Positions 22,638 through 25,264 of a stretch of 64,000 bases of DNA are shown one piece after another. The stretch is from contig NW_015971539.1 in NCBI RefSeq assembly GCF_000182565.1, positions 174,775-238,774 on the forward strand, read 5' to 3'. The position numbers and the translations under genes are program-made. Origin of the DNA: Spizellomyces punctatus DAOM BR117. Lineage: Eukaryota; Chytridiomycota; Chytridiomycetes; Spizellomycetales; Spizellomycetaceae. Within the stretch, counting starts at the first letter, position 1. Each line of letters starts with the position of its first letter. Below the pieces are notes generated by a model, which was not told the origin of the DNA, searched no databases, and saw only the letters and a list, made by a program, of their open reading frames with translations.

Positions 22638-22672
22638 ATTCATAGTGCGGAGCCGATGGGAACTGGCACTAG
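22638..22672 (+). repeat. Left terminal inverted repeat
   Basis: Starts ATTCATA then GTGCGGAGCCGATGGG and ends GGCACTAG. It pairs with 24,765-24,799. It contains CATA directly before the GTGCGG core. Confidence 0.9.
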
Positions 22673-22749
22673 TACATAGATTCCAACCGATTTAATCATA
22701 ATTTTACTCGATTTAGACTCATGAACTATGGTTTGATCCAAAAAATCCT

Positions 22750-22756
22750 ATATAAG
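22750..22756 (+). promoter_or_regulatory. Candidate TATA box of the Fanzor gene
   Basis: TATATAA about 50 bp upstream of the ATG at 22,806 and inside the element, so the transposon carries its own core promoter. Motif and position only. Confidence 0.4.
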
Positions 22757-22805
22757 TTGTCGTGCCCATTTTCCCAGGCTTTCATCTTTTCCCACAGATA
22801 TCATC

Positions 22806-24702
22806 ATGCCGCCAAAAAAGAAGCAAAAACTCGAAAAACTCGACAAACCCACCTTACATACCTGCAACAAGACTTCCTTTGCAAAAGCCCTGCCAAACGA
22901 GATCTATCGCCAACGGCTTCTAGATTACATCGCCATCATCCATCAACTTGCCGACCATGCTTCCCACGCGCTGAAATTCTATCTCCTTTCATCATCAGCG
23001 CCAGTTTTTCCCACGGTAAATGAAGATACAATCGAAGCCATCCTGTATCTTCTCAACAAGGGGGAGGCTTGGCATCCAAGAAAGGAAGCAAAGAAGGCAT
23101 GGCGGGATTGTTTGCTGCCATATGTTCAACGGTACTGCCAAATCGTCGGCTTCATTCACCCAAATCTACGAGGCGAGCAGCAGTCAATCAATTACCTGAC
23201 AGCGAGTATGATGATGAACCTGAAAGTCAACGTTCAAGAGCATTTCATGACGATGCTGCTCCGATATATCAATCTGCAGCTTGACGTGAAGGGACAGAAG
23301 CAGCAACTGCCACCGAAAAGTGATGCGTGGAAAAGTGATGCGTGGAAAGCTTTCTTTGCTCGTCTTCGTTACTTGAAGTCAATTTTCCTTTTTGATGTGG
23401 TGCCCGAGTTGCTGGATCTGAGCAGGACAGAATCCGATATCATGGACGAAATTTGGTCGCTCGATCTGCCTTTTCTTGTCAACGATCCACTGGCATATGC
23501 TGTTGCCGTTGACCCGATGTCCTTTTTCCCTGCATACTGTCGGTTGTCAAGCCTATATGAAAAGCATGGATTTCGACGGTTCAGCGCCATCCCACTTCGC
23601 CACTCCCTCATCCAAACACATATTCACATCGACACGGTCATTCTGTACCAGCATATCCTTTGCATCATGCGACGGGAAGCGGAAACTGTTGAAAAGTTCG
23701 ATTTATGGTTGCGCGTGTGCAACCTGCGGAGCAAGGCTTTTCGGTCTCGCCGCGGTATGCAGTTTGAAGGCTCGATCAGTACGGATGGAACCTCGGTGTC
23801 GGTATACCTAAAGCACCCAGAAGCAGAGTATGGAAAGCGCGGAGCGAGAAAGTCAGCAAAGAGTTTAGAGGATGAAGTTAAAGCGCAATACATGGAGAAA
23901 AACTTACCTGCTTGTCGAGCAGCAGAGAATGTCGTTGTTATCGACCCAAACAAGCGTGATCTACTCTACTGCCAAGACAGCAATGGTGCGACAATGTTTC
24001 ACTACACCGCCAACCAGCAAGCCATGGAGACTGGAAGCCGTCGACAGCAAAGTGCAACGGCAGCAGATGAAGAAAGAAGCTGGAGTTGACCTCATAGAAT
24101 CACGTATCCCTAGCCACAAAACAATGAACCTCATGGACTTTACTCGCTACCTTCTTGTTCGCCGTGCTGATTGGGATCGTCACAAGGAGTTCTACTCACA
24201 TCCTGCCCACACGCGGTGGAAGTGGCATGCATTTATAAACCATCAGAAGAGCGAATCAGACCTCATAAGCGCCATGCACAACAAATACGGTGAAAACTTT
24301 ACCGTTGTGATGGGTGATTGGAGCGATGCCGGTCGAACTGCAAGATTTCAGACCTCATCAAAGACGAAAGGTTGGCGCACCCTCTTTAAGCACAACAGGA
24401 TCACCTGCTTCCTTCTCGACGAGTATAAAACCTCATCTGTCTGCCCTCACTGTTCCTCTGGCGTTGAAAAAGGCTTCAAAACACGACCTCATTCAAGACC
24501 TTGGTGCCGTCGCGAAGGCAAGATTGAAAAAGTCCACGGATTGCTGGGTTGTACCAACCCTAACTGTCAGCAAGCCTGGACGATGCGCTACTGGAATCGA
24601 GATACGCTGAGCACCTGCAATATGCTAATGATTGTGAGATCAATGTTGGATGGGCACTGTAGACCAGAGGTGTTCAGCAGAAGCGTTCCAGCTATAGCGT
24701 AG
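22806..24702 (+). CDS. Fanzor (eukaryotic TnpB-like RNA-guided DNA endonuclease), one frame change
   Basis: The first frame runs 22,806-24,089. It starts with a nuclear-localisation-like MPPKKKQKLEKL and reaches the RuvC-I motif VVVIDPNKRDLLYCQD with its catalytic Asp. The second frame (+1, open 23,872-24,702) continues with KKEAGVDLIES, then FTVVMGDWSDAGRTAR, the alternative Glu of Fanzors in FLLDEYKTSSVCPHC, the zinc finger CPHC...CTNPNC, and RuvC-III NRDTLSTCNM with the last catalytic Asp. All catalytic and zinc residues are present. No GT-AG intron of normal size explains the switch, which falls between about 24,000 and 24,085. It could be a recent one-base insertion, a sequence error or an unusual splice. 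The family includes a biochemically studied Spizellomyces protein. Read as one chain it would be about 630 residues. Confidence 0.88.
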
Positions 24703-24753
24703 CGTAGATTAGTTAGTTAGCTTTTCCGAACCGGTTGTCGCCGGTTCAATCCC
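24695..24753 (+). promoter_or_regulatory. A-box and B-box like Pol III elements before the right repeat
   Basis: TAGCGTAGCGT at 24,695-24,705 matches the A-box consensus TRGCNNAGYGG except at the last base and overlaps the Fanzor stop codon. GGTTCAATCCC at 24,743-24,753 fits the B-box consensus GGTTCRANNCC. The 37-bp gap is within the range of tRNA-type promoters. The surrounding bases do not fold as a tRNA: the T-stem has two mismatches and the acceptor strands do not pair. A Pol III transcript started here would run through the right repeat into flanking DNA. Function is inference. Confidence 0.35.
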
Positions 24754-24764
24754 TGGTGCGGGTG

Positions 24765-24799
24765 CTAGTGCCAATACCCATCGGCTCCGCACTATGAAT
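24765..24799 (-). repeat. Right terminal inverted repeat
   Basis: Reverse complement of the left repeat; the only differences are two bases in the inner third (AAC versus TAT on the same strand). It ends CCGCAC-TA-TGAAT on the + strand. Confidence 0.9.
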
Positions 24800-25264
24800 G
24801 TCGCAAGCAAAACAAACCCAATGCGCAACGATTGGTAAGACGGGTATTTGCCATCTATGCCCTTGTTCACCATTTCTTGCAAACGTACGCTGGTGCACAG
24901 TTTATTATCATGGAGATCCCGGAGTTTGCTGTCCGAATGCAGGAAATCAGCAAACTCTTCGTGGTGAAATTCTACGCAATGGAGTAACAAAGTGCCAAGC
25001 GAAACTGCAAGCGGCTATCGCCCTCCCACGCCTTTGTGGTTGATTCCAAGCGTTACGATCAAAGAAAGCACGCGATGGAAAGCAAAGTAAAAAAATCTAT
25101 TTGACAATTTCTGGTCGCCTACCTTTTAGCACGTTGAGGCGTTTTAAAGAAAAATGATTTTTTACTATTGGCCCCACGGGTGAACGAGCGATAGACGAGC
25201 AACAGTCCAATTGCTGAAAAACAAGTTGCTGCTCATGTTCGCTGCCCACTAGAGATCTCATGCC
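24800..25264. other. Region between the Fanzor element and the seven-TM gene
   Basis: 465 bp. Before the insertion it was probably the common upstream region of NTH1 and the seven-TM gene, which are divergent. No coding exon is supported. Confidence 0.45.

Follow-up and report, generated by a model that had tools for sequence, protein, structure and literature searches.

The Fanzor1 element SPu-1 of Spizellomyces punctatus was named by Bao and Jurka in 2013, who gave it 33-bp repeats, putative TA duplications and 17 full-length copies (PMC3627910). Saito et al. (2023) list 42 Fanzor and 134 ghost loci, with a CA upstream of the left repeat conserved in Fanzor and ghost loci alike, and report that the target-adjacent motif (TAM) of SpuFz1 is CATA with each base required, that an RNA of 88-90 nt at four loci extends 14-15 nt beyond the conserved region or right end, and that ghost scaffolds are functional with SpuFz1 in human cells (PMC10432273). 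The first-pass annotation of the DNA studied here had named CATA as the motif of a Spizellomyces Fanzor, and for SpuFz1 this is confirmed by PMC10432273. We note that one passage of PMC11423790 assigns the TAM CATA to GtFz1 and TTAA to SpuFz1 ('respectively'), opposite to PMC10432273. The element, its repeats, the putative TA duplication, CATA, the left CA and the guide past the right end are thus already in print. As far as the accessible text of PMC10432273 goes, no transposase lies within or is flanked by these repeats; for Saito et al. the biological role of Fanzors is open, and they suggest help to other transposons in trans and mention sister-chromosome cutting as promoting ssDNA transposons.

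In the IS200/IS605 TnpB elements, as in SPu-1, the TAM lies at the left flank, the guide is taken from the right flank and the filled site is spared. Unlike them, SPu-1 has inverted repeats and a TA at both ends and is not known to carry TnpA, and half of its TAM is supplied by this TA, itself contained in the RNA scaffold. Members of IS200/IS605 have a TnpA transposase, subterminal hairpin ends and no inverted repeats; with its long inverted repeats, the element falls outside the group. TnpB has been reported as a drive for insertion sequences (PMC11870625). The Fanzor1 element of SfAV resembles SPu-1 as a non-autonomous inverted-repeat element with the target duplication within the RNA scaffold and an RNA running about 15 nt past it (Yoon 2023, PMC10711439); it differs in its repeats, its duplication and its host, an insect virus, and the accessible text of PMC10711439 describes no flank asymmetry. 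Tc1/mariner-type transposons share with SPu-1 the inverted repeats and the TA at both ends, but SPu-1 has no transposase gene inside and carries a CA outside the TA on one side.

We analysed a 64,000-nucleotide stretch of S. punctatus DNA (the window), which holds a 2148-bp element at 22645-24792 with one TA dinucleotide at each side. Its features, with the basis of each in brackets, are:

22641-22642, + strand: CA just before the left TA, giving the first two letters of the CATA motif (sequence; CA in 27/31 Fanzor left ends)
22643-22644, + strand: left TA, which completes CATA and is a putative target duplication (sequence; PMC3627910 calls the duplication putative)
22645-22675, + strand: left terminal inverted repeat (arm alignment; has GGGAACTGG, most copies GGGTATTGG)
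22806-24089, + strand: 5' part of the Fanzor1 gene, frame 1 (open reading frame, ORF; PDB 8gkh, SpuFz1, E 1.8e-227)
23872-24702, + strand: 3' part of the Fanzor1 gene, other frame (ORF; PDB 8gkh, E 7.5e-131, alignment starting at its residue 62)
24719-24794, + strand: predicted omega-RNA scaffold, ending with the right TA (covariance model R1, built from 24 sequences with the window copy, L001, among them, 107.5 bits; lengths from PMC10432273)
24762-24792, - strand: right terminal inverted repeat, which also provides the strand that closes stem 2 of the omega-RNA (arm alignment, folds)
24793-24794, + strand: right TA; the filled junction with the preceding bases is ACTA, not CATA (sequence; 34/34 printed right ends are CACTA)
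24795-24809, + strand: predicted 15-nt guide, the first right-flank bases (scaffold end; 14-15 nt in PMC10432273)

The window element is confirmed to be a copy, with a frameshift, of SPu-1/SpuFz1, the Fanzor1 element already published for Spizellomyces punctatus. It has the same protein, repeats, TA ends, left CA, CATA TAM and right-end omega-RNA, and differs in its frameshift and in having, by chance, CA on both sides. The gene had been read as a Fanzor from the letters alone, correctly so, since both halves match SpuFz1 (PDB 8gkh); the SpuFz1-like protein is broken over two overlapping frames, and this copy could therefore be served only in trans. Another copy, L017, encodes a 638-residue protein whose residues 2-638 are without any difference from PDB SpuFz1. 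An ORF above 600 aa is kept in 10 of the 18 two-ended Fanzor copies, and 45 copy pairs gave a median dN of 0.078, dS of 0.488 and dN/dS of 0.155 (range 0.11-0.23); the Fanzor copies are under purifying selection. The window gene also contains a 15-bp tandem duplication of two exact units (23315-23344), which is in-frame and adds five residues relative to SpuFz1. Scans of the window for tRNAs and Rfam families gave no matches.

Inverted repeats had been proposed to bound the element, and they do: the arms at 22638-22675 and 24762-24799 are 38 nt long and 92% complementary, and the repeat pattern has two matches in the window where none is expected (100 shuffles). The flanks read ATTCATA on the left and TATGAAT on the right, so that the CATA and TATG of the first-pass annotation are both present in this copy; TATG is no family feature, being found at 6/36 Fanzor right ends against a background of 8% (two-sided p 0.066). 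The symmetry is an accident of the window copy. Here the flanks themselves are inverted (22638-22644 and 24793-24799), and the joined site ATTCATATGAAT is a 12-bp palindrome; beyond the TA and a weak T/A preference, such palindromy is not seen in the family. It had also been suggested that the empty site would read CATA followed by the right flank. Removal of one TA does yield the site ATTCATATGAATGTCGC, on the assumption that the TA is a duplication.

A right-end omega-RNA with a guide from the flank has been shown by others for the family; what we show is its anatomy. In the window copy the covariance model places a predicted scaffold at the right end, and in 34/34 printed right ends the right TA (CACTA) is precisely where the conserved scaffold stops, with variable DNA directly after it. 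The guide would therefore start at the right element edge, the very position that had been predicted for it, and RNAs running 14-15 nt past the right end (PMC10432273) agree with this. It also follows that the filled right junction is ACTA, which is not the TAM. Folded one at a time, sequences from four repeat types all give two common stem-loops, of which the second is closed by the end of the transposon with its TA. In a covariation test on 8 sequences, with the structure named after the single-sequence folds, 96.3% of cells pair (4/500 shuffles as high), both sides changed in 4/17 pairs (31/500 shuffles as high) and the covariation score is 0.214 (6/500 shuffles as high); further pair types are not above shuffles (256/500), and slid versions of the structure reach at most 51.5% and 2. 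Support for matched changes in the omega-RNA stems is thus modest. The scaffold stretch GGTTCAATCCC resembles the Pol III B box consensus; we give this reading no weight, since the ghost scaffold has GGTTTATTCCC instead.

The family was searched for in 24.0 Mb of genome on 29 contigs. Up to two mismatches, the 16-nt repeat core has 86 genome matches against 4 for a reversed control, and 40/199 first-look places scored in the DNA search; other elements thus share the repeats. The window element has the family inverted repeats and a TA at both ends. Among 31 Fanzor left ends (the stray left end of L013 included) we read CATA in 27, TATA in 3 and TATG in 1, whereas the right ends, read from outside, have CATA in 6/36. 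The CA before the TA is thus found in 27/31 left ends versus 6/36 right ends (Fisher 5.1e-9). Left out of these counts were the right end of L010 (a run of N) and end matches below 40 bits (L005, L028 and L035), those of L005 and L028 being right ends of other repeat types; the right ends of L007 and L020, which have damaged repeats, were read by hand, and L044 at 3496 was assigned to the right ends on the basis of its inner sequence. For L028 and L030 the end search gave no left end. In L022, a Fanzor of another repeat type, the left end is CATA plus one extra A (inexact repeat match).

The same one-sidedness is seen in the ghosts. Counting exact repeat matches only, the left repeats (n=79) adjoin CA in 61, CT in 5, TA in 2, AT in 1, AA in 1 and other letters, not read, in 9, with ends changed in both flank letters visible for one repeat variant only; the right repeats have CA in 3/92 (left 61/79 versus right 3/92, Fisher 4.4e-26).

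Left and right ends can also be compared within the same copy. The 18 two-ended Fanzor copies have CA on the left only in 14, on the right only in none, on both sides in 3 and on neither in 1; for 46 ghost pairs, matched by position and strand rather than read, the numbers are 41, 0, 2 and 3. Altogether 55 of 64 two-ended elements are left-only, 0 right-only, 5 both and 4 neither (sign test 5.6e-17), where a symmetric transposase inserting in either orientation should give equal one-sided counts. Independence of the insertions was checked only for the 18 Fanzor copies; their flanks have no other match. The background of CA before TA, taken from the analysed loci with elements included, is 8.06%; the right CA in 5/60 left-CA elements agrees with it, and the odds enrichment of the left CA over it is about 171. 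At -4, each of the four Fanzor left ends that lack CA carries T, which is what C-to-T decay would produce. One belongs to a copy with a shorter ORF (L008), two to copies that match the 5' part of the element only (L041 and L045), and for the fourth (L043) only a left end was detected. We found no left/right flank comparison in the accessible text, figures excluded, of PMC10432273, PMC3627910, PMC11423790 or PMC10711439, or in literature listings with few subscription papers among the texts covered. The comparison is new evidence on an open question, the element itself being known.

The surrounding bases bear on whether the CA lies in the target or in the element. T at -6, four bases outside the TA, is enriched on both sides alike (left 21/31, p 1.5e-6; right 23/36, p 2.2e-6; difference p 0.80; position picked after inspection of 15 positions per side), and on the right side A or T occupies -3 in 30/36. 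The features of the left side are C at -4 (27/31 versus 10/36 on the right) and A at -3 (31/31 versus 17/36). Judged from these flanks, there appears to be a palindromic integration preference around the TA to which a one-sided CA is added, such that integration looks symmetric and the half-TAM does not. A palindrome centred on the TA puts the CA inside the target, and this argues against the idea that the CA is part of the element's left end and travels along, in which case the empty site would lack CATA and the TAM match would have another cause. The near-invariance of the CA, kept despite a median dS of 0.49, speaks for that idea. Against it, no duplicated bases are seen beyond CATA and the right TA in 18 copies, and we consider the idea very unlikely.

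The TA itself is present at 36/36 right and 30/31 left Fanzor ends and is the only sequence common to both flanks in the 18 copies, in which a longer target duplication, sought at several offsets and lengths, did not emerge beyond shuffles. We treat the TA as a target duplication by assumption; being invariant at the ends, it could also belong to the element.

It is also conceivable that CATA on one side is a requirement of the integration machinery itself, through a complex that discerns left from right as the TnpA of IS200/IS605 does, or through a role of Fanzor and its RNA in target choice, so that CATA would be an insertion preference coinciding with the TAM. In IS200/IS605 the motif of the nuclease is the insertion motif of the transposase, which provides a precedent, and several positions distinguish the left from the right ghost repeats, so that a complex could discriminate between them. 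The equal T at -6 on both sides points the other way, and we know of no one-sided integration enzyme of this kind. A further observation bears on this reading, which we consider rather unlikely. Left-type ghost ends with an omega-RNA scaffold or a right repeat within 1.5 kb have CA in 52/56, whereas those with no omega-RNA end among the scaffold matches listed (100 of 120) have it in 9/23 (Fisher 1.1e-6), a difference that speaks against an insertion preference. Seven of these 23 come from contig C15 or higher, where the listing of scaffold matches (100 of 120) breaks off; on contigs C1-C14 only, where the scaffold listing is near-complete, CA is found in 47/51 with and 4/16 without a listed RNA end. 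Five of the left-type ghost repeats (L053-L057) adjoin CTTA, not CATA, with different flanks and the same repeat (101 bases read), and have no omega-RNA end among the scaffold matches listed. For left-type ghosts without an RNA end, the inner 13-mer showed no near partner by eye in the compared subset (100 of 111 matches listed). The contrast is suggestive only.

We lean, with some reservation, towards a reading in which the element is moved by a TA-specific transposase acting in trans, Fanzor takes its guide from the right flank and cuts the CATA site once this is restored, and the element is copied back during repair. SPu-1 would then be a non-autonomous inverted-repeat transposon mobilized by a putative transposase. 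Its right end would give an omega-RNA, with the right TA as the last bases of the scaffold and the 14-15 nt that open the right flank as the guide. If the TA is a target duplication, the uninserted or excised allele would consist of host CA, TA and guide sequence, that is, a SpuFz1 target. The filled allele would be spared, because its right junction is ACTA and no guide sequence follows its left junction. Cutting of the empty allele, with repair from the filled sister or homologue, would restore the element; insertions without a left CA would not be rescued and would move on or be lost, so that copies accumulate at CATA with the TAM on the left. Ghosts may supply RNA only and borrow the Fanzor protein in trans. 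Homing as in IS200/IS605 had been suggested for this element, and the arrangement on which it depends stands, with the TAM at the left flank and the guide from the right flank; the cut and the copying back we infer.

For this reading speak the one-sided CA in Fanzor copies and ghosts alike, the 55 left-only versus 0 right-only elements, the equal T at -6 beside the one-sided CA, the higher CA count of ghosts with an RNA end than of those without one among the listed matches, the fit of the non-CA left ends to C-to-T decay together with the kept ORFs and low dN/dS, and the published CATA requirement, guide past the right end and working ghost scaffolds (PMC10432273). Against it, the CA is still present in 9/23 left-type ghost ends without a listed RNA end, and it has been kept despite the median dS, meaning that the copies moved long after their lineages split or that the CA is kept otherwise. 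Excision of Tc1/mariner-type transposons usually leaves a footprint, which would spoil the donor site, such that only uninserted alleles would be cut. In addition, the TA is invariant at the ends and may not be a duplication, and the accessible text of PMC10432273 reports no transposase.

Paralogous empty sites were sought by joining the flanks (80+80 bases) of the 18 two-ended Fanzor copies; only their own halves were matched, which also counts against cutting and copying back. The DNA search, run as three queries of six copies each with 12 matches per query, all being the copies' own halves, skips very common words and would miss 15-nt matches. The same result, with the same sensitivity, bears on the possibility that Fanzor has another purpose, such as regulating the host or assisting other transposons in trans, and that the CA bias is a relic. 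The joined sites have no second match in the genome, the guide is each copy's own flank, and the bias is common to Fanzor copies and ghosts. Thus, even though the role is left open by Saito et al., who propose assistance in trans to other transposons (PMC10432273), we give this possibility little credence.

Taken one step further, cutting and copying back would make Fanzor a retention ratchet of a eukaryotic inverted-repeat transposon, an extension to which we give even chances. Copies would move until they have a CA left of the TA, the cut would then fix the insertion, and ghosts would be kept in trans. Because unrescued insertions would keep moving, the roughly 171-fold odds enrichment would be explained without target choice. 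If this is true, one-sided TAM flanks are a genomic signature of Fanzor's role. A one-sided motif in an otherwise symmetric transposon is evidence, from natural copies, that an RNA-guided cut helps to decide which insertions persist.

Two further features were seen at individual loci. Two ghosts of different repeat types (L051 with L052, and L005 at 700-1170) have in common a short reading frame (MRTPMWWCRGPRPPD..., MRMPLWCRGPRPPD...), for which a 43-residue stretch gave no match in Pfam and which lies downstream of a TATA-like box. Within L013 (1410-1520), a fragment of a left end and a right end share a strand and are 74 bp apart, resembling the outcome of an aberrant insertion.
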